Positions 3,988 through 36,813 of a DNA stretch of 64,000 nt are shown in pieces; the first letter of the stretch is position 1, and the number at the start of each line of letters is the position of its first letter. Source of the DNA: Lachnospiraceae bacterium 10-1. GTDB lineage: Bacteria > Bacillota > Clostridia > Lachnospirales > Lachnospiraceae. The stretch covers positions 1-64,000 of the forward strand of contig KE159819.1 of the NCBI GenBank assembly GCA_000403495.2. Reading direction: 5' to 3'. The notes below the pieces were generated by a model that worked only from the letters and a program-made list of their open reading frames with translations, searched no databases and was not told where the DNA came from. The translations under genes were made by a program, and so were the position numbers.

Positions 3988-4383
3988 ATGGAGCCTAAAA
4001 TCTTATTTGTAAAACAATTTCTTGCTACTTTGTGTGAAAAAGAAGTCACGACAATACCGATCAATAATAAAAAATTTAAAGATGGAATACAAAGTATGGC
4101 GGATTATTATCATTCTAATGCAGGCAGCTTTGGCCCATATGCTGATGCTTTGGATATGCTTTTTTTGAAGTACTCTACACGCGGGGATTTCAGCCAGTTT
4201 TCAAAGATTATTGAGGGATTTAATGGCAGGATCGTGTCGCTGGAAAATCCTCACTATATCAAAGCCAATTTAAAATTAGAAAAAGATTACATTGAAGATT
4301 TAAAACAGGATAAAGAATTAGGAATCTCTCATGAACAGTTTCAGGTGTTGGCTGACTGCTTTATAAGGGGTGCTGATATGTAA
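3988..4383 (+). CDS. Small protein, partner of HD/PRTase-like protein
   Basis: This 131-aa soluble, acidic protein is not one I recognise. Two ATGs stand together at 3985 and 3988 after GAGGGG at 3975-3980; the second has the better spacing (7 nt). The stop codon is only 19 nt before the ATG of the large HD-domain gene, whose ribosome site lies in the gap, so the two are almost certainly translated together. Small proteins directly upstream of nucleotide-acting effectors are often regulators, sensors or antitoxin-like partners; that role is inferred here, not shown. An ATG at 3949 would add 13 residues but lacks a ribosome site. Confidence 0.75.
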   Translation: MEPKILFVKQFLATLCEKEVTTIPINNKKFKDGIQSMADYYHSNAGSFGPYADALDMLFLKYSTRGDFSQFSKIIEGFNGRIVSLENPHYIKANLKLEKDYIEDLKQDKELGISHEQFQVLADCFIRGADM

Positions 4384-4402
4384 AGATAAGTGGGGGAAGA
4401 TA

Positions 4403-7117
4403 ATGTCGTTTAGAGAACTGTTCGAGGAAAAGGAATTTAAAGCCGCCTTTGATGAAGTTAATCAATTTACCAGCGAAATCTTGCAAAAATATAATGCCAG
4501 ACTCAAAAACATTTCATTAGTTGATGAGAGAAAAGAAATATTTGATGCGGTATGGGGAAACATAGAATTTTGCAGCGGAGAAATCTATATATTAGATTCT
4601 CCGCTGTTGCAACGCTTGAGAAAGATTAAGCAGTTAGGGTTGGCATATTTTGTTTATTGTGGATGCGATTATTCCAGATATTATCATACACTGGGAGTCA
4701 CTTATCTGGCAGATCGGATGGCAGCAGCCATTAACAGATGTGACTTAGGAACTAATGAGGAGAAGAAAAGTTTTTTTAAAGCAATCGTTCGTTTGGCAGC
4801 AATTTTCCATGATACAGGTCATATGTTTTTAAGCCATGTTTCTGAACATTATTTTTCTAAGAGTCCGTTTTATTCCCGCAATAAAATGATTACCACTCTT
4901 TTGGATGAATTTGAAAGAAAGGCAGGTAAAAAGCCTGCTTTACATGAGCTGCTAGGATGTATGATCGTAAATACCGGAGCAGTTCATGAATTATTGGAAA
5001 TAGTTGCGAAAAAAATCAAAGGATTATTATCGGGATGTAATTATACAATTGATGAAATGGTGGAATATATTTCAGCACTAATTGTAGGTGTGCCGGTGGA
5101 CCGGGAAATTTTGCCATATTCCAGTATTGTAAATGGGCCGATTGATGCGGATAAATGTGATTATTTATCCAGAGATTCCCATGTTACCCGCGTGCCGGTT
5201 GCAGTAGATGTTTCCAGAATTACACAAAAATTAAGTGTGGTGGAAAGTAAGGATATTTGCACATCTGAGTTGTGGCATCAGGATGCCGACACAAGCATTA
5301 AATTCTATGAACTTGCAATGAAGGATTCGGCGGAAAAGGCGCTGTTCCAACTTTGCATAGCAAGAACAATTATGTTTGACAGTGTATATTATCATCATAA
5401 GGTTTTGACAGCGGAAACAGAGTTTCGCAATCTTGTTGGAAGATTAGCAAATTTAAAAAAACCGTTTTTCATTAATTTTGTGGAAATACTCCGGCATACG
5501 GATGAAGACTTCAATGACTATTTTTTTGATGCATTAAAAAGTGGCAGAGAGGAAGATGATCGTGGAGAAATTGATGCGATAGAAAAAGAATTTCATAAAA
5601 TATATGAGCGCAATATAGCCAAACGTGTTGTGTGCCTTACTCCAGACTATTTACTAGGACCTCAAAAGTATACGGAGGCTTTTTGGGATTCTGTGATGAC
5701 AGTGTTTGATTCTGAGGAAGAAAAGACTTTCATTTGTGAGATTAAGGAAGAATATGCAAAAATTCAAATGAAGTTAGAAGGAATTGAAATAAGAGAAGAC
5801 CAAGTGCAAATTTTTGCAATTCAGGCACCAACACAAGTATTTGGCCATAGTAAGATACAAGTGCCGATTGATCTAAGGAATGGGAATCAGAGAGATTTTA
5901 AAGGATATGAGTTAGTTAGCAGCAGGGAAACTAGTAGTTCTTCTTCCTACATAGTGACAGATGAAGATGACCGCTTACTGGTGTATCTTGCTACGGAAAA
6001 GATATTTATGAAAAAATATCATATTGAACTAAGAGAAGAGGCCATTACCTGTGGAAAATATAGTCAAAAGGCAATTAATGAAAAAAGAAATAAACTGTTT
6101 TTAAAAGGATATTATGATGACACACCAGAATTAATCAGCGATACCCTGCTATATAATAATTTATCTGATAGTGTAATTGAAAAAATAGTTAAAAAATATA
6201 GAAGTTATGAGGGACCGGAAGGATATAAAGTATCAAAAAAAGAAGTTGAAGGTTTCTTTAAGCAATTAATGTGTGCTTGTAAAGAAAAGCGGAAATGTAA
6301 AAGCCTGCTGAATGGTGTTGCCGGTTTGCTGGAATATGCACTTTTCATTGATAGGGAATTTTTATCGCGTGAATTGGAATTCAAAGTGAAAGAATTAACT
6401 GCAAACGATGAAACTCTATATGTTGTTGCGTTGGGAAGTTTGCGTGATAGTGCAAAACATATCTCCTATTTTTGGAATGATATACAAATACCTGGATTGA
6501 AGATTGAAACGGAAAAAACATTGCAAGAGCTTATAGAATTAGAAGAAGTTGCTAAAATTGTGTTTTTTGATGATGGCTCTTATTCTGGAACACAAATGGT
6601 TTCCATTATGCAGGAGTATATGGGAGTTGAAAAAAGAAAAACAAAGGAAAAGCATGTAAAAAAATTAACGGAAGATGGAATGAAAGCACTTCAAAAGAGG
6701 CAAATACAATTTTTCTTTGTGGCATATAATAAATCAAAAGAAGCTGAGATGCTTGAGGAACTTAAGGAAATAGGTTTGGACAATGTTGGAATTTCCTGTA
6801 TTAAGGATATGAGCAAGAAGTTGTTAGAGAAGAATGATGGAAAATTATTTGAAGATGAAGAGCAGAGAAGTTTGGTCAAAAATGTGCTGGCTGACATCGG
6901 ACGATCTGTCATGAGGTCGACGAAGATGGAAGAGGGAGTCTATAGAGAAGGATGGGATGAGGATCGTGTAAATAATGCGGCATTAGGATATAACGATGCA
7001 CAGCAGATGGTATTTTTAAAGTCAAGTGTTCCTACATATACGATTACAGCTTTTTGGCAGTCTGGCAGATACAATGGCTTTGAATGGAAACCTCTGTTTA
7101 GAAGGACAATAAAATAA
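4403..7117 (+). CDS. HD-domain phosphohydrolase fused to phosphoribosyltransferase-like domain
   Basis: This 904-aa protein begins with a dGTPase/SAMHD1-type HD domain. The metal-binding set is visible as H95, H136-D137 (in IFHDTGH) and D248 within GPIDADKCDYLSRD, the usual second half of this family. Such enzymes remove triphosphate from dNTPs or hydrolyse related nucleotides. Near the C-terminus, residues 720-731 read VFFDDGSYSGTQ, like the PRPP-binding loop of type I phosphoribosyltransferases, and the protein ends with an aromatic FEWKPLF tail seen in PRTase-like domains of predicted conflict systems. The start is set by GGGGGAAG just before ATG 4403; a GTG at 4370 is possible but less likely. 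It follows the small gene by 19 bp. A nucleotide-depleting or nucleotide-modifying defence effector is the best reading; this is inferred from domains. Confidence 0.85.
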   Translation: MSFRELFEEKEFKAAFDEVNQFTSEILQKYNARLKNISLVDERKEIFDAVWGNIEFCSGEIYILDSPLLQRLRKIKQLGLAYFVYCGCDYSRYYHTLGVTYLADRMAAAINRCDLGTNEEKKSFFKAIVRLAAIFHDTGHMFLSHVSEHYFSKSPFYSRNKMITTLLDEFERKAGKKPALHELLGCMIVNTGAVHELLEIVAKKIKGLLSGCNYTIDEMVEYISALIVGVPVDREILPYSSIVNGPIDADKCDYLSRDSHVTRVPVAVDVSRITQKLSVVESKDICTSELWHQDADTSIKFYELAMKDSAEKALFQLCIARTIMFDSVYYHHKVLTAETEFRNLVGRLANLKKPFFINFVEILRHTDEDFNDYFFDALKSGREEDDRGEIDAIEKEFHKIYERNIAKRVVCLTPDYLLGPQKYTEAFWDSVMTVFDSEEEKTFICEIKEEYAKIQMKLEGIEIREDQVQIFAIQAPTQVFGHSKIQVPIDLRNGNQRDFKGYELVSSRETSSSSSYIVTDEDDRLLVYLATEKIFMKKYHIELREEAITCGKYSQKAINEKRNKLFLKGYYDDTPELISDTLLYNNLSDSVIEKIVKKYRSYEGPEGYKVSKKEVEGFFKQLMCACKEKRKCKSLLNGVAGLLEYALFIDREFLSRELEFKVKELTANDETLYVVALGSLRDSAKHISYFWNDIQIPGLKIETEKTLQELIELEEVAKIVFFDDGSYSGTQMVSIMQEYMGVEKRKTKEKHVKKLTEDGMKALQKRQIQFFFVAYNKSKEAEMLEELKEIGLDNVGISCIKDMSKKLLEKNDGKLFEDEEQRSLVKNVLADIGRSVMRSTKMEEGVYREGWDEDRVNNAALGYNDAQQMVFLKSSVPTYTITAFWQSGRYNGFEWKPLFRRTIK

Positions 7118-7140
7118 GAAGAAGTCAACACAAAAATAGT

Positions 7141-7184
7141 CATACTCTTAAGATTACAAAATGCTTGAGAGTATGGCTTTTTTA
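7141..7184 (+). terminator. Rho-independent terminator after HD/PRTase gene
   Basis: CATACTCTTAAG at 7141-7152 pairs with CTTGAGAGTATG at 7164-7175 (one wobble pair), followed by a T-rich run (CTTTTTTATTT). This closes the transcript of the HD/PRTase unit and separates it from the Sel1-repeat gene. The remaining bases to 7353 are A+T-rich and presumably carry the next promoter. Confidence 0.85.
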
Positions 7185-7353: not shown

Positions 7354-9561
7354 ATGGACATAATTATGGAAATTCTTTCTTTAATTTCAAATATTGTGAC
7401 AATAATATCAGGAGCAATAACTTTTTTTCAATGGATAATAAAAAGAATATGGAAAAATGAGGATAAGCGGCATATTGTAAATCCTTTTTTACCAGATCTG
7501 GATTTGGAAGGTGAGGCTTCCGGTACACGAAAAGGAAAGAAAAAACTGCTTATTTTTATATGTAAAGCTTCGCTGCTTGTTTTCTTATGCTCGGCAACAC
7601 TTTCAATCATTTTATACTTAGTAGGTAATAGACCGCCAGAGGATGAACAGGAAGCGTACATATGGTACTTAGAGCATACGGAAAATGGAGGTTCGCCTAA
7701 AAATTTAAACGCATTAGGAGAATGTTACTTTTTTGGACGAGGTACAGAAGTAAATTTCGATCAGGCCTTTTCCTGTTTTGAAAAAGCTGCCCCTAAGAAC
7801 AGCAGCGCACAGTATAATTTAGCAGTTTGTTATTATTATGGTTATGGAACTGAGATTAATGACGAAAAGGCATTTGAATACTTTCAAAAGGCAGAGGATG
7901 ATGTTGCAGACGCAAAAGCATATGCAGGGCATTACTATTATTGCGGGTGGGGTGGCATAGAAGTTGATAAAGATAAGGCGAACTCTCTGTTTGAGCTGTC
8001 TAAAAGCAAAGGCAGTACTATGGCTTTATACTTTCAGGCTATGTATTATATTTTTGAGGATGAGTCAGAGGATCGCTTCGACAAGGCAATTGAGTTGTGC
8101 CAACAGGTAATTGATGCCGGAGGTGCTAAGGGCTATGGATTGTTAGGACTATGCTATGCGGATGAGAATTCACTGGTGTATGATTATGGGAAGGCTTATG
8201 ATTATTTTATAGCAGGAGAGGAGGAGGGAGATGATTTTGCATTATATGGATTGGGACGATGTTATGAAGAAGGAGAAATTGTAAAAAAGGATGAGGGAAA
8301 GGCTGTTGAATATTATCAAAAGGCGTCAGCTTTGGGAAATCCTTATGCAAATTATTATCTAGGACGCTGCTATTATAATGGTATAGGAACAGAAGCCAGT
8401 TATGAAAATGCCTTGGAATGTTATTCACGTGCAGCGTCCAGGGGACATGCAGCAGCAATAGCCATGCAGGGAATATTTTATGAAAATGGATATGGGTGCG
8501 AGGTAGATGAAAGAGCAGCATTCAGATGCTATGAAAGAGCGGCTGGGCTGGGGGATTTAACTGCAATATATAATCTTGCGTGTTTTTATTATCAGGGAAC
8601 CGCTACTCCTCAGGATTATGAAAAGGCTGTTGAATTGTATATGCAGGCAGCAGAGCAGGATCATGTAAGAGCTCAATATACCTTGGGGGTTTGTTACGAA
8701 AATGGGTATGGGGTTGAAGTAGATGATGAAGAAGCGCAGAAATGGTATGCAAAAGCAGCAGAACAGGAAAATATTTATGCTCAAAGAAATTTGGGATGGA
8801 TGCTATACGAGCAGGAAGAGTATGCAGAAGCTTTTAAATGGTTTTCGGAATCAGGGCATGAAGGGTATGCGAGCTCTCAATATGGCATGGGAGAGTGCTA
8901 TTATTATGGCAAGGGTGTCGGGCAGAATTACGAACAGGCCAAGTTATGGTATGAAAGAGCTGCTGAACAAGAGCATGTAACAGCTACAATACAACTGGGA
9001 AATATTTACTATTATGGACGTTGTGGAGAAATTGATTATATAACAGCTGTTAAATATTATGAAAAGGCAGCCGAGCTGGGATCAGCAGAGGGAGAATACA
9101 AGTTAGGTCGTTGCTATGAGGAAGGAAAAGGCGTAGAACAAAATAATAATAAAGCATTTGAGCATTATAAAAAAGCAGCCGAGCAAAATCATGCAAATGC
9201 ACAAAGCAGCCTGGGCGCTATGTATTATTATGGATCTGGTACTGTAAAAGACTTAAGTGAGGCAATAAAATGGTTTGAAGAGGCAGCCAATAATAATGAT
9301 ACATTTGGAAAGAAGTTTTTAGCATATTGCTATTATTATGGAGATGGTGTTCAAAAAGATGAAAAAAAAGCAGCAAATGATTTTGCAAAACTTGCAGAAG
9401 AAGGCGATGCGTGGTCGCAAATGATGCTTGGAAAGTGTTATTTGTATGGTAAGGGATTGGAACCAGATTTCGATCAGGCAGTTTATTGGTTTCAATGTGC
9501 AGCAGAGCAAGGTGAAACCGCGGCACAAGAACTTTTGGGAGAATGCTATGAAAACGGATGA
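7354..9561 (+). CDS. Membrane-anchored Sel1-repeat protein, C-terminally truncated
   Basis: The 735-aa product has two hydrophobic segments (about residues 8-30 and 66-90) and then roughly fifteen Sel1-like repeats from about residue 115 to the end. The repeat pattern is A-x-x-x-LG-x-CY-x-x-G-x-G-V-x-x-D-x-x-K-A-x-x-(W/Y)-(Y/F)-x-K-A-A. Sel1 repeats are helical-pair solenoids used as protein-interaction scaffolds. The frame stops at a TGA (9559-9561) inside the conserved NG-x-G-VEVD part of a repeat; the same frame carries on as a good Sel1 unit to 9633. A single C-to-T change in CGA would explain this. The ribosome site is weak. It lies beside the HD/PRTase unit but has its own transcript after a terminator. 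Confidence 0.85.
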   Translation: MDIIMEILSLISNIVTIISGAITFFQWIIKRIWKNEDKRHIVNPFLPDLDLEGEASGTRKGKKKLLIFICKASLLVFLCSATLSIILYLVGNRPPEDEQEAYIWYLEHTENGGSPKNLNALGECYFFGRGTEVNFDQAFSCFEKAAPKNSSAQYNLAVCYYYGYGTEINDEKAFEYFQKAEDDVADAKAYAGHYYYCGWGGIEVDKDKANSLFELSKSKGSTMALYFQAMYYIFEDESEDRFDKAIELCQQVIDAGGAKGYGLLGLCYADENSLVYDYGKAYDYFIAGEEEGDDFALYGLGRCYEEGEIVKKDEGKAVEYYQKASALGNPYANYYLGRCYYNGIGTEASYENALECYSRAASRGHAAAIAMQGIFYENGYGCEVDERAAFRCYERAAGLGDLTAIYNLACFYYQGTATPQDYEKAVELYMQAAEQDHVRAQYTLGVCYENGYGVEVDDEEAQKWYAKAAEQENIYAQRNLGWMLYEQEEYAEAFKWFSESGHEGYASSQYGMGECYYYGKGVGQNYEQAKLWYERAAEQEHVTATIQLGNIYYYGRCGEIDYITAVKYYEKAAELGSAEGEYKLGRCYEEGKGVEQNNNKAFEHYKKAAEQNHANAQSSLGAMYYYGSGTVKDLSEAIKWFEEAANNNDTFGKKFLAYCYYYGDGVQKDEKKAANDFAKLAEEGDAWSQMMLGKCYLYGKGLEPDFDQAVYWFQCAAEQGETAAQELLGECYENG

Positions 9562-9872: not shown

Positions 9873-11144
9873 ATGAAACCAGAATATTTTGAAGATTTAA
9901 TTAATTTATGTACAGGCATTTCTGAACAGGAAAATAAATTATTGCCGTTATGTGCTGCAGAAAATGTAGTTTCTCCATTTAGTAAAATTCCATTAGATAC
10001 ATTTCTCCAAGAAAAATACTTACTGGGAGGTATATTAGAATATCAAGAGCATAGTAACTTTGTTGGAAGTAAAAAATTATACGAAATATATGAATTATTA
10101 GTTCGACAATGCAATAAACTATATGGATGTAAATACGCAGATGCACGAACTTTATCAGGAGTAAATGCAGTTATGACTTTGCTTATGAGCTTATTTTCAG
10201 CTGGCGACACAATTCTTATTTCATCAGAAGAATACGGTGGACATGGATCAATGCCAAAAATTTGTCGTAGGTTAGGAATTAATATAATAGAAATCCCTTA
10301 TAATTATGAAAAATATGATTTTGACTATGAAGAAACTAATAAGATTTTACAATCACAAAAAATTAATGGCATTTTAATATGTCTTTCAGACATCATTAGA
10401 ATGCCGCAGCTAAAAAAATTCGATTTACCCAAAGAGTGTATTTTGATTTTTGATGCAACACAAATATTAGGATTAATAGCAACGAAAAGTATGGAAAATC
10501 CATTGGAATGGTTTCCAGAGGAACAAAAATTTATATTAATGGGGGCTACCCATAAAACATTGCCTGGTCCTACCTGTGGGCTAATAATGACAAACAGCCT
10601 AGAACTCGCACACCGATTTGATACTTTGATAAACCCAGACTATTTGAGAAACAGCCAGTTGCATCATATATTCAGTCTCATATTATCTTTAATGGAATTG
10701 GAAATATATGGGCAACAGTATTGTTCTGCAATCATAAATAATGCAAATATTCTTGCTGATACATTAACCAAATATAACTTCGATGTTTTGAAAGCTTCGC
10801 CCCAATATACATATACGCATCAGCTTTTTATATCCATGCCAGAGAATGATGCAAAGAAGTTTTATAATAAATGTTTAGATTATGGGATAAGTATCAATTT
10901 TAGGAATAAACGTTTGTACAAAACATGTGGATTGCGCATTGGAACACAGAAAATCTCGAGATATGGGTGGCAAGATAGTGAAATGCAGTCTATCGCGAAA
11001 ATATTAAGAGACATCCGGAGTTACAACCAATTCTCCCAAGATATCTCTAACAGAATAAATAAACTTTCGGCAAATAAAAAAATAAGATATACTTTTGGAA
11101 GTGATTATTATGATATTATTTATACTAAATTACATCACAGTTAA
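9873..11144 (+). CDS. Serine hydroxymethyltransferase-like PLP enzyme
   Basis: A 423-aa fold-type I PLP enzyme. The SHMT family marks are visible: AAENVVSP near the N-terminus, a Gly-Val-Asn-Ala segment at the cofactor-phosphate site, FDATQILG with the cofactor-binding aspartate, and GATHKTLPGPTCG with K228 as the Schiff-base lysine (the SHMT signature is THKTLRGPRGG). GGAGAG at 9859-9864 sets the ATG at 9873; the frame is open further upstream into the inverted repeat. It is divergent from housekeeping glyA and sits beside a membrane ATPase, so a side role (aldol or transaldol chemistry on an unknown substrate) is more likely than one-carbon metabolism. Its 3' end overlaps the convergent ATPase gene by 15 bp. 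Low G+C suggests horizontal acquisition. Confidence 0.8.
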   Translation: MKPEYFEDLINLCTGISEQENKLLPLCAAENVVSPFSKIPLDTFLQEKYLLGGILEYQEHSNFVGSKKLYEIYELLVRQCNKLYGCKYADARTLSGVNAVMTLLMSLFSAGDTILISSEEYGGHGSMPKICRRLGINIIEIPYNYEKYDFDYEETNKILQSQKINGILICLSDIIRMPQLKKFDLPKECILIFDATQILGLIATKSMENPLEWFPEEQKFILMGATHKTLPGPTCGLIMTNSLELAHRFDTLINPDYLRNSQLHHIFSLILSLMELEIYGQQYCSAIINNANILADTLTKYNFDVLKASPQYTYTHQLFISMPENDAKKFYNKCLDYGISINFRNKRLYKTCGLRIGTQKISRYGWQDSEMQSIAKILRDIRSYNQFSQDISNRINKLSANKKIRYTFGSDYYDIIYTKLHHS

Positions 11145-13454
11145 TTTAAGATTGTAATATTCAGACTTGCTTTTGTGTAATATAGAGAGCATATCTGAGT
11201 ATTGCATTTCCTCCCAATACGATATTGCTTCTTCCGGAATACACTCAGAATTTGTTAGATAATTTATATATATAGCATAATTATAGTTAATGTTTAAGCT
11301 AAAATCATATGTTGTAGAAATAATTGATTTCAGGATATCAGTATTTATTTCATAACCATGCTTGATTTTTAAAAGCATGATGCCTAATTGAGAGGTGCTT
11401 TGCAAATTATAATCATGTGCACGTTCTGCATATTGAAGGGCTTCTGAATAATAACTGATACTTGTTTCATAGCCTTTTGAAGAATTATCCCAGATTCTAT
11501 ATATCTCACCCAGTTCAAAATATATATCATATTTAATACGTAACGAAGTTACTTCCAATAACTTCATTGTTGATTGCAATATTTGTTCTGCTTTTTCAAA
11601 ATTTTCACATATTTTATACTCGTAAATAGCTTTATGCCTAGCAACATATGGTTTCCAAATTTCATTCTTTTCATCTTGATATATAATTTGCTCTATTTTA
11701 TCAAATGCATCTTCATATAAATAATTCAAATCACCCTGAAACATTTTAATAGATGCAGCAGAATAAATAGAGCGTATTCTTATTTTATCATTTTTATAAT
11801 CCATATCATTAATTAGATTTACAAAAACCGTGTATGCTTGATTCAAATCTACCCCTATGTGTCTTAAGCAATGTGCATATAAATATTGGCATTTAACCAT
11901 TTGTTCCTTGGTCAAAGCCTTTTGGGATAATGCATATGAAAAGGTGACAGCATTTTGTAAATAATTTGTAAGATGGTCTAAATCAACTAGTAAATATTGG
12001 TATTCAAAATCTATATCACTACTTATATTCAATAGATTAAGTTGGTTATCGTAATTATCAACCACTTTCCTTGCCTTATCATATAATCCCAGTTCGAGAA
12101 GTGATTTCAAATAATAAAATCTAACATAAGTCCAACATTCTTTATCTTCTCTTAAGTGTGGATTTATTTGTCCATTAGCCTCAAAATCACCAATATCAAT
12201 TAGCAAAGGAAAATTATTATCTGCATATTGCCTATGTAAAATATCTGCCATCAGGGCATAGTCATATTCAAAATCAGATTTTAGTGCTGCCATTAAAGCT
12301 ATGTGCTCGGCATTTGGCATTCTCTTATAATACTGATAAATCTTTTTATAACTTTCAGTACTGTATTCAGATAAGAAATCTATACATTTAAGCGCAATAA
12401 GTTTGTCAGTATATATTTTATTCTTATACGAATTAATTAACGAAAATGTTAATAGTTTTTTAGTAATTGGCGGTGCTATGCAATTGTTTATACCATAAAT
12501 AATTTTAGTCTCAACCCCATCTTGTAACAATTGGCAAAGACAAATTATCAATGATAAAGAAACTTTTTCAAGATTGTTTAAAGAATTAATTAATTCTTCA
12601 ATGTAATTTTCAAGATTATTATAATCAATAATTTTAATTCCCTTGGTATATGCTTCAACACTATAACGAGCATACACAGGGTATCCATTAGACAATTTTG
12701 ATATGTCATCTCTTTCAGATTGCTTAATCTCTATATCATAGCTTTGCGCAAGTAATTTTATTTCATTTTCACCGAATCTACATGGACATATATGAAATGT
12801 ATCATTATTACTATCAATTGCAATCACAACTTGATTATACTTGCTACAGTTTATAAATGCTTTTGCAAACTCTGTACATTCTATCGAGTCCCTCTCATAA
12901 ATATTGTCAATGAATAAAATACTATTCTTTTTTAATGTAGAGTTATTAAGTTGCTTGCTTATGTCTGATACAGAAGCGTTCGAATATTTACAAAACTTAT
13001 TTGATAAAGCCTGTGTTATGCTCTTGGTATGGTTATTATTGTAGTAAAAAGCAGCATATGACTTCCATTTTTTTTTATCCGTATAATTAATTCGATCACA
13101 TGACATTTTCAAAAACAATGTTTTTCCCATACCGATGTTACCGCTAATATATATTATTCTGTCTTGAGCATTCTGTATTAAATCCAATAATTTCGCGTAT
13201 TCAATATCTCTGCCTACAAAATGCTCGTCATTTAAATATCTCTCAATTAAGGTATCCTTTTGAAATCTACTAAATATAAATGTCCAAAGTGCTATACAAA
13301 TAGTAAGTGGGATTCCTATCAATGTTGCAAAAACCCCTGCGGTTCCTGAATTATTTTTATAAAGAAAAAACATGGTGCTTCCAGAAAATATCACACAGAG
13401 TAGAGTCAATATAATAGCAAGACTTATTTGGAAATATAATTTATTTTTTTTCAT
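11130..13454 (-). CDS. Membrane-anchored P-loop ATPase with TPR-like C-terminus (STAND-like)
   Basis: The 774-aa product has two transmembrane segments (about 9-31 and 41-63), then a conserved FVGRD entry motif and Walker A GNIGMGKT at 105-112. A Walker B-like ILFIDNIYERD follows at 179-189. The remaining ~450 residues are helical and look like degenerate TPR units. This order (VGR motif, P-loop, helical repeats) is typical of STAND/NB-ARC-type signalling ATPases, many of which act in bacterial defence. AAAGAGG lies 7 nt before the ATG. It starts just inside the right inverted-repeat arm, in an ATGA overlap with a short upstream frame, and converges with the PLP-enzyme gene. Very A+T-rich, consistent with transfer. 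Confidence 0.8.
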   Translation of the reverse strand: MKKNKLYFQISLAIILTLLCVIFSGSTMFFLYKNNSGTAGVFATLIGIPLTICIALWTFIFSRFQKDTLIERYLNDEHFVGRDIEYAKLLDLIQNAQDRIIYISGNIGMGKTLFLKMSCDRINYTDKKKWKSYAAFYYNNNHTKSITQALSNKFCKYSNASVSDISKQLNNSTLKKNSILFIDNIYERDSIECTEFAKAFINCSKYNQVVIAIDSNNDTFHICPCRFGENEIKLLAQSYDIEIKQSERDDISKLSNGYPVYARYSVEAYTKGIKIIDYNNLENYIEELINSLNNLEKVSLSLIICLCQLLQDGVETKIIYGINNCIAPPITKKLLTFSLINSYKNKIYTDKLIALKCIDFLSEYSTESYKKIYQYYKRMPNAEHIALMAALKSDFEYDYALMADILHRQYADNNFPLLIDIGDFEANGQINPHLREDKECWTYVRFYYLKSLLELGLYDKARKVVDNYDNQLNLLNISSDIDFEYQYLLVDLDHLTNYLQNAVTFSYALSQKALTKEQMVKCQYLYAHCLRHIGVDLNQAYTVFVNLINDMDYKNDKIRIRSIYSAASIKMFQGDLNYLYEDAFDKIEQIIYQDEKNEIWKPYVARHKAIYEYKICENFEKAEQILQSTMKLLEVTSLRIKYDIYFELGEIYRIWDNSSKGYETSISYYSEALQYAERAHDYNLQSTSQLGIMLLKIKHGYEINTDILKSIISTTYDFSLNINYNYAIYINYLTNSECIPEEAISYWEEMQYSDMLSILHKSKSEYYNLKLTVM

Positions 13455-29657: not shown

Positions 29658-29747
29658 ATAAGGTTGAAAGAAACTTTCAACCTTACGTATTTGGGCCTAT
29701 TCCCACTTGGGAGAAGCCCAAGCGGGAAAGGCATGGGTATAAAGATG
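29658..29747 (+). repeat. 90-bp structured leader repeat, copy 1
   Basis: Nearly identical (88 of 90 positions) to 36724-36813. It contains an 11-bp hairpin (29660-29670 with 29674-29684; AAGGTTGAAAG, AAA loop, CTTTCAACCTT). A second nested hairpin follows: TTGGGC/GCCCAA (29691-29696 with 29716-29721) around TCCC-ACTT-GGGA. Both copies end exactly on the ATG of a gene. The length is 30 codons, open in frame with that gene in both copies, so the repeat may be read as an N-terminal extension or act as an RNA leader. Confidence 0.9.
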
Positions 29748-36723: not shown

Positions 36724-36813
36724 ATAAGGTTGAAAGAAACTTTCAACCTTACGTATTTGGGCCTATTCCCACTTGGGAGGAGCCCAAGCGGGAAAGGCAT
36801 GGGTATAAAAATG
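36724..36813 (+). repeat. 90-bp structured leader repeat, copy 2
   Basis: Second copy of the element at 29658-29747, differing at two positions. The same 11-bp hairpin and nested TTGGGC/GCCCAA hairpin are intact. Here AAGGAG at 36715-36720 lies 9 bases before a TTG at 36730 that opens the repeat as codons (KETFNLTYLGLFPLG and so on), leading in frame into the membrane-protein gene. This raises the chance that the repeat is translated. Confidence 0.9.

Follow-up and report, generated by a model that had tools for sequence, protein, structure and literature searches.

Among described systems with related parts, phosphoribosyltransferase (PRTase)/winged-helix (WH) effector genes have been called typical of III-A1 retrons (PMC12548924), DprA-PRTase protects against T7 and lambda (PMC9122126), and Clover combines a deoxynucleoside triphosphate hydrolase (dNTPase), CloA, with a nucleotidyltransferase, CloB (PMC12265719); papers cited here by PMC number are drawn on in extract. 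Here we describe a two-gene locus of the gut bacterium Lachnospiraceae bacterium 10-1, at positions 3988-7117 of a stretch of 64,000 nucleotides from contig KE159819.1 (hereafter the window), whose parts are of known kinds, a SAMHD1-like HD domain and a PRTase-CE domain, and which lacks defining features of retrons and of Clover. The pair probably represents a kind of anti-phage system that has not been catalogued. The interpretation we lean towards is that of a conflict module, most likely directed against phages, in which a WH-like partner accompanies a dNTPase-like HD enzyme whose second effector is exchangeable. The literature searched yielded no HD/PRTase-CE fusion paired with a small protein, though one may be in print.

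The small gene (3988-4383, forward strand) encodes a polypeptide of 131 amino acids and the large gene (4403-7117, forward strand) one of 904 amino acids, which according to its open reading frame (ORF), Pfam and relatives consists of a SAMHD1-like HD domain, a middle region and a PRTase-CE domain. A recheck of the ORFs agreed with the coordinates, lengths and 19-nt gap between these same-strand genes given in a preliminary description made from the sequence alone. The closing terminator proposed there was also recovered, as an intrinsic hairpin with a T-rich tail (approximately 7133-7183, forward strand; RNA fold −21.9 kcal/mol, z −5.95, equalled by 0 of 200 shuffles); it was found by RNA folding and is absent from the listing of a simple terminator scan. 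The two genes look like an operon closed by this strong hairpin. Compared with two relatives (L009 and L001), the proportion of non-synonymous differences was 0.17-0.26 and that of synonymous differences 0.75-0.83, near saturation, for both genes; as the former lies far below the latter, both genes look like proteins under selection.

The HD domain (residues 43-404; 4529-5614, forward strand) matches the SAMHD1 catalytic core in sequence and fold, and Pfam HD was found in the protein at E 1.1e-7. SAMHD1 residues were placed on an HMMER alignment by setting their numbers by hand on the aligned letters, with residue roles taken from PMC7311409. Arg164, His167, Gln149, Leu150, His206/Asp207, His210, His215, Asp218, Lys312, residue 319, Arg366 and Tyr374 correspond to R92, H95, Q77, L78, H136/D137, H140, H145, E148, K251, D258, R321 and Y329, respectively; we infer that H181 is the counterpart of His233, at which the printed alignment has a gap. 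The metal set had been described as H95, H136-D137 and D248, residues that are placed rightly, but the third ligand is better assigned to D250, which aligns with the metal-binding Asp311 of SAMHD1, D248 aligning with Asp309. Both aspartates are invariant in the 22 HD sequences compared, as are R92, H95, H136, D137, H140, H145, E148, D258 and Y329. Q77 and Y254 are kept in 21 of the 22, K251 in 20 (Arg in the other two), R321 in 18, and L78 and H181 in 17 each. Equivalents of the metal ligands and of the catalytic H215/D218 of SAMHD1 are present, D218 being replaced by Glu (E148) as in the CloA dyad. Because the metal and dyad residues are kept in 22/22 sequences, the HD site looks catalytic. 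SAMHD1 and SAMHD1-like dNTPases share the fold and most substrate-pocket residues with the window protein, which differs from SAMHD1 in having no SAM domain match, an extra C-terminal effector and a small partner gene upstream.

Clover resembles the locus in its two genes, its HD motif, its HE dyad and its partner gene, and H145/E148 follow the HD motif at the same spacing as the CloA dyad H126/E129 does (PMC12265719). However, the HD domain of the window scores far below the cut-off of the dGTPase model (TIGR01353, 15.7 bits against 152.35), its 131-amino-acid partner is WH-like with no recognised nucleotidyltransferase, and the extract of the CloA description mentions no C-terminal PRTase or nuclease (PMC12265719). 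The dGTPase label was rejected in favour of SAMHD1-like, as was a Cas3 HD label, both giving weak matches only in the window and its relatives; five relatives had weak PADLOC matches to dGTPase or Cas3 models (best dGTPase 3.7e-8).

By sequence, the C-terminus belongs to the PRTase-CE family: residues 647-901 (6341-7105, forward strand) match PF24390 with 95.6 bits, against a Pfam gathering cut-off of 27 (E 5.6e-27). With Pfam HD in the same protein, the HD/PRTase-family fusion of the preliminary description is supported, and at these E-values neither set of motifs is a chance resemblance. The phosphoribosyl pyrophosphate (PRPP)-loop-like motif noted earlier, VFFDDGSYSGTQ, begins at residue 720, and the PRPP-loop-type motif IVFFDDGSYSGTQ spans residues 719-731 (6557-6595, forward strand). 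Its pattern, DD-x3-SG-x-Q, is invariant in 11/11 PRTase-CE rows, nine from the HD-fusion family and two from stand-alone PRTase-CE proteins; the usual PRPP loop ends in Thr/Ser, where this pattern has Gln. In the predicted model (pLDDT 63.5) a strand at 718-723 precedes a helix at 729-739, and a PRPP loop between them fits. The aromatic C-terminal tail described earlier is real and lies within the PRTase-CE alignment. The structural match list (VIA) of the large-protein model was filled by SAMHD1, and the PRTase part, searched as a profile against the PDB, returned chance-level matches only.

Type III-A retrons share this C-terminal family, PF24390, over the cut-off, and their effector model PRTase_III-A matches the C-terminus at 3.6e-12, the sole strong match of the window pair in PADLOC-DB 2.0.0, the release used throughout; the model also matches the relative L106. 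The window PRTase differs from that of a type III-A retron in being fused to an HD enzyme. Neither a reverse transcriptase nor DprA was detected by Pfam among seven local proteins scanned, the three reverse transcriptase matches of the genome lie on contigs C1 and C11 while the window lies on C20, and no Rfam match reached gathering level in the window; the retron reading was rejected. The PRTase of DprA-PRTase may likewise belong to PRTase-CE.

The small protein was modelled confidently (pLDDT 90.8), and its structural matches were mostly WH domains, but weak. It had no Pfam match over the cut-off, no NCBIfam or PADLOC match and no match to a nucleotidyltransferase family, and the small proteins of four relatives had no PADLOC match. 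Across 16 aligned small proteins only N87-P88, a pair between two predicted strands, is invariant. By hhalign, small-protein families A1 and A2 gave 2.8% (E 0.016), and A1 and A6, with more rows, 52% (E 1.4e-4), which links the window and plasmid types. The SMALL_A profile detects the small proteins of L106 (4.6e-37), L112 (4.4e-4), L108 (6.5e-4) and L043 (7.2e-4). As those of L109, L110, L113 and L116 are absent among the SMALL_A matches listed, they are assigned by their position, length and NP motif. A protein of the small family is also encoded at 8001-8351 of L041, a Rhizobium leguminosarum plasmid record that is not one of the 22 in which an HD match was found.

Twenty-four distinct loci were placed in the HD subfamily of the window. 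L003/L111 (no difference in the 12,000 bases compared), L009/L095, L010/L030/L114, L011/L096/L115 and L046/L116 were each counted once; other HD matches (generic SAMHD1-like proteins, mostly partial) were left out, and L117 and L037 served as outgroups. The preliminary description had coupled the two genes, and this pairing is conserved: 22/24 loci have a small gene immediately upstream, at a spacing that ranges from a 14-nt overlap to a 73-nt gap in the 21 loci measured. Profiles back 18 of the 22 small genes, most of these being rows of the profiles themselves (the exceptions are L106, L108, L112 and, for SMALL_A, L043), and the remaining four are those assigned by position, length and motif.

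The C-terminus varies within this family. PRTase-CE is present at 11 loci (the window, L001-L007, L009, L106 and L114), three of them damaged or split: L006 into two ORFs, L007 by an internal deletion and L114 into two genes. At four others (L038, L039, L040 and L043) the C-terminus is probably a PD-(D/E)XK-type nuclease, as E23, D53, E63-K65 and Q83 are invariant in 4/4 in the order E-D-ExK-Q, which we take to be the motif of such nucleases; the match of PF18741 REase to the L038 C-terminus was sub-threshold (0.064), and no PDB relative was found for this type of C-terminus. L042, which stops next to an IS6 transposase before reaching its C-terminus, was put with the nuclease type by the tree. 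The HD domain stands alone with a small gene in L108, L109, L110, L112 and L113, and without one in L107 and L115; L116, grouped with those that have a small gene, is broken, so that its end is not judgeable. On an HD tree of 22 rows and two outgroups, the four type labels need three changes, the minimum possible, against a mean of 10.8 after shuffling. L107 and L115 fall inside the PRTase group and so have probably lost both effector and partner. How the main groups branch from one another is unsettled: outgroup branches are very long, long branches of the HD-only and PRTase groups meet, and L039, L040, L042 and L115 have an odd composition. Since relatives exchange the PRTase for a probable nuclease or lack it, the HD and effector parts look separable. 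The proposal of the preliminary description, a small protein that would sense for or restrain a single effector both hydrolysing and ribosylating nucleotides, stays tentative.

What stays constant, a WH-like partner and an HD domain whose catalytic residues are intact, points to depletion of dNTPs on infection. In such a conflict module the small protein, the nucleotide sites of the HD domain or both would probably read a change in DNA or dNTP pools as the cue; the HD enzyme would then hydrolyse dNTPs to deoxynucleosides and triphosphate, starving phage replication, while the small partner may act as a DNA sensor or hold the HD enzyme in check. A second effector would be supplied in the window protein by the fused PRTase-CE of the type III-A retron kind, through a putative PRTase reaction, and in relatives by the probable nuclease or by nothing. 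The chief rival, which we regard as possible though doubtful, holds that the HD domain is mainly a dNTP sensor that switches on the fused C-terminal effector, with the WH-like protein as adaptor. SAMHD1 is activated by nucleotides, defence systems commonly swap effectors while the sensor stays constant, and here the C-termini are swapped while HD domain and small gene persist; yet none of the 22 sequences departs from the metal ligands or the H145/E148 dyad, and at five intact loci no effector is fused. A related and still tentative proposal, to which we give a little more credit, is that of a SAMHD1-like receptor chassis, in which the HD domain would read infection-altered dNTP pools and, with the WH partner, gate the PRTase-CE or nuclease besides or instead of hydrolysis.

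An unlikely alternative is a toxin-antitoxin pair, with the WH-like protein as putative antitoxin and autorepressor and the HD-effector protein as putative toxin. It would account for the tight coupling of the small upstream gene, which overlaps the large one in L108 and L113, for the WH-like structural matches and for the occurrence of the pair on plasmids.

Returning to the anti-phage module, the setting of some relatives is defence-like. Among 10 neighbouring proteins picked by eye at L002, L004, L038, L039, L040 and L042, known defence genes were found to adjoin four loci: ThsB and a TIR-SLOG protein at L004, NucC, an oligonucleotide cyclase and an E1-E2 protein at L038, and PtuA at L039 and L040. 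The picked neighbours of L042 had no match and those of L002 weaker matches only (REase_II, 4e-13). L043, in a phage contig, is flanked by phage head-closure and tail genes.

Several observations weigh against this interpretation. The defence-neighbour counts stand without a random-gene control. Five proteins flanking the pair in the window have no strong PADLOC match, a repeat protein matching PtuA weakly (5.5e-4). For 81 neighbours at eight PRTase loci, the strong PADLOC matches traced, among 25 of 57 families listed, were to candidate or broad models: PDC-S01 (L114), Fic/SoFic and PDC-S04 (L003), protein kinase (L007) and PDC-M03A (L001). A further 50 neighbours, taken from L043 and five HD-only loci, matched no more than four models (best 8.2e-17). 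L107 and L115, which have neither small gene nor effector, adjoin housekeeping genes, a context that the preliminary description would have taken against a defence role; it holds for these two and not for the homologues overall. H181 is Ser in all five nuclease-type rows, and Q77, L78, K251, Y254 and R321 differ in some of the 22 sequences. The PRTase part, a family member by its Pfam match, resembles a solved PRTase (OPRT, 4fym) weakly in its model (E 0.22). Finally, we know of no activity or phage test for any member.

The distribution of the HD family across the order and class is patchy: at 1e-45, 10/392 genomes of the order had an HD match, which in G143 was of the generic kind, as did 6/291 of the class, with the organism's own genome counted; PRTase-CE exceeded the cut-off in 3/398 genomes of the phylum. 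A housekeeping regulator of dNTP pools that gained a salvage-type PRTase domain is very improbable, for although SAMHD1 regulates dNTP pools (PMC7311409) and L107 and L115 have housekeeping neighbours, this patchiness, the neighbours that by eye vary from locus to locus, and the plasmid and phage-contig occurrence argue against it. The 785-amino-acid gene upstream of the pair had no match in 36 other genomes of the genus, so that no empty site was readable.

Downstream of the module, the window encodes a Sel1-repeat protein (7354-9558, forward strand) and a STAND/AAA-type NTPase (11133-13454, reverse strand) whose N-terminus apparently holds a membrane segment. A 90-nt repeat of 98% identity (29658-29747 and 36724-36813, 7,066 bases apart) starts two different ORFs. 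Elsewhere, stand-alone PRTase-CE genes occur on plasmids of Sinorhizobium meliloti (L122), Rhizobium beringeri (L121) and Moraxella osloensis (L123), and in L075 (G273); no such relative was found in phages. DNA methyltransferase genes adjoin them in L122, L123 and, judged by sequence appearance, L075, and PF24389 ORC-CDC6-like genes in L122 and L121, with ThyX too in L122; together these genes might form a possible DNA-modification-linked conflict system. A Burkholderia contaminans plasmid (L120, 4858-6705) encodes, near a tyrosine recombinase, a 615-amino-acid protein whose N-terminal half is unassigned and whose C-terminus is a PRTase-CE domain; the PRTase part of the window protein has matches in 34 Burkholderia plasmid records. 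On the viral contig L044 (4951-7551) an apparent protein kinase is joined to a SAMHD1-like HD domain in 866 amino acids. Neighbours of about 170 amino acids beside other SAMHD1-like HD genes (L047, 950-1462; L048, 3047-3571) have a WYLRGPYC-like motif in common and match no Pfam family over the cut-off.

The locus would link dNTPase and PRTase effectors, both of them little-understood components of immunity in bacteria: regulation of the former is just emerging with Clover (PMC12265719), and the mode of action of the latter has been called unknown (PMC9122126). If the receptor chassis proposal is true, the chassis would form a separate defence family; no PADLOC model matched the small proteins examined. 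The natural series of PRTase, probable nuclease and no effector on one HD core lets one ask which part does the work.
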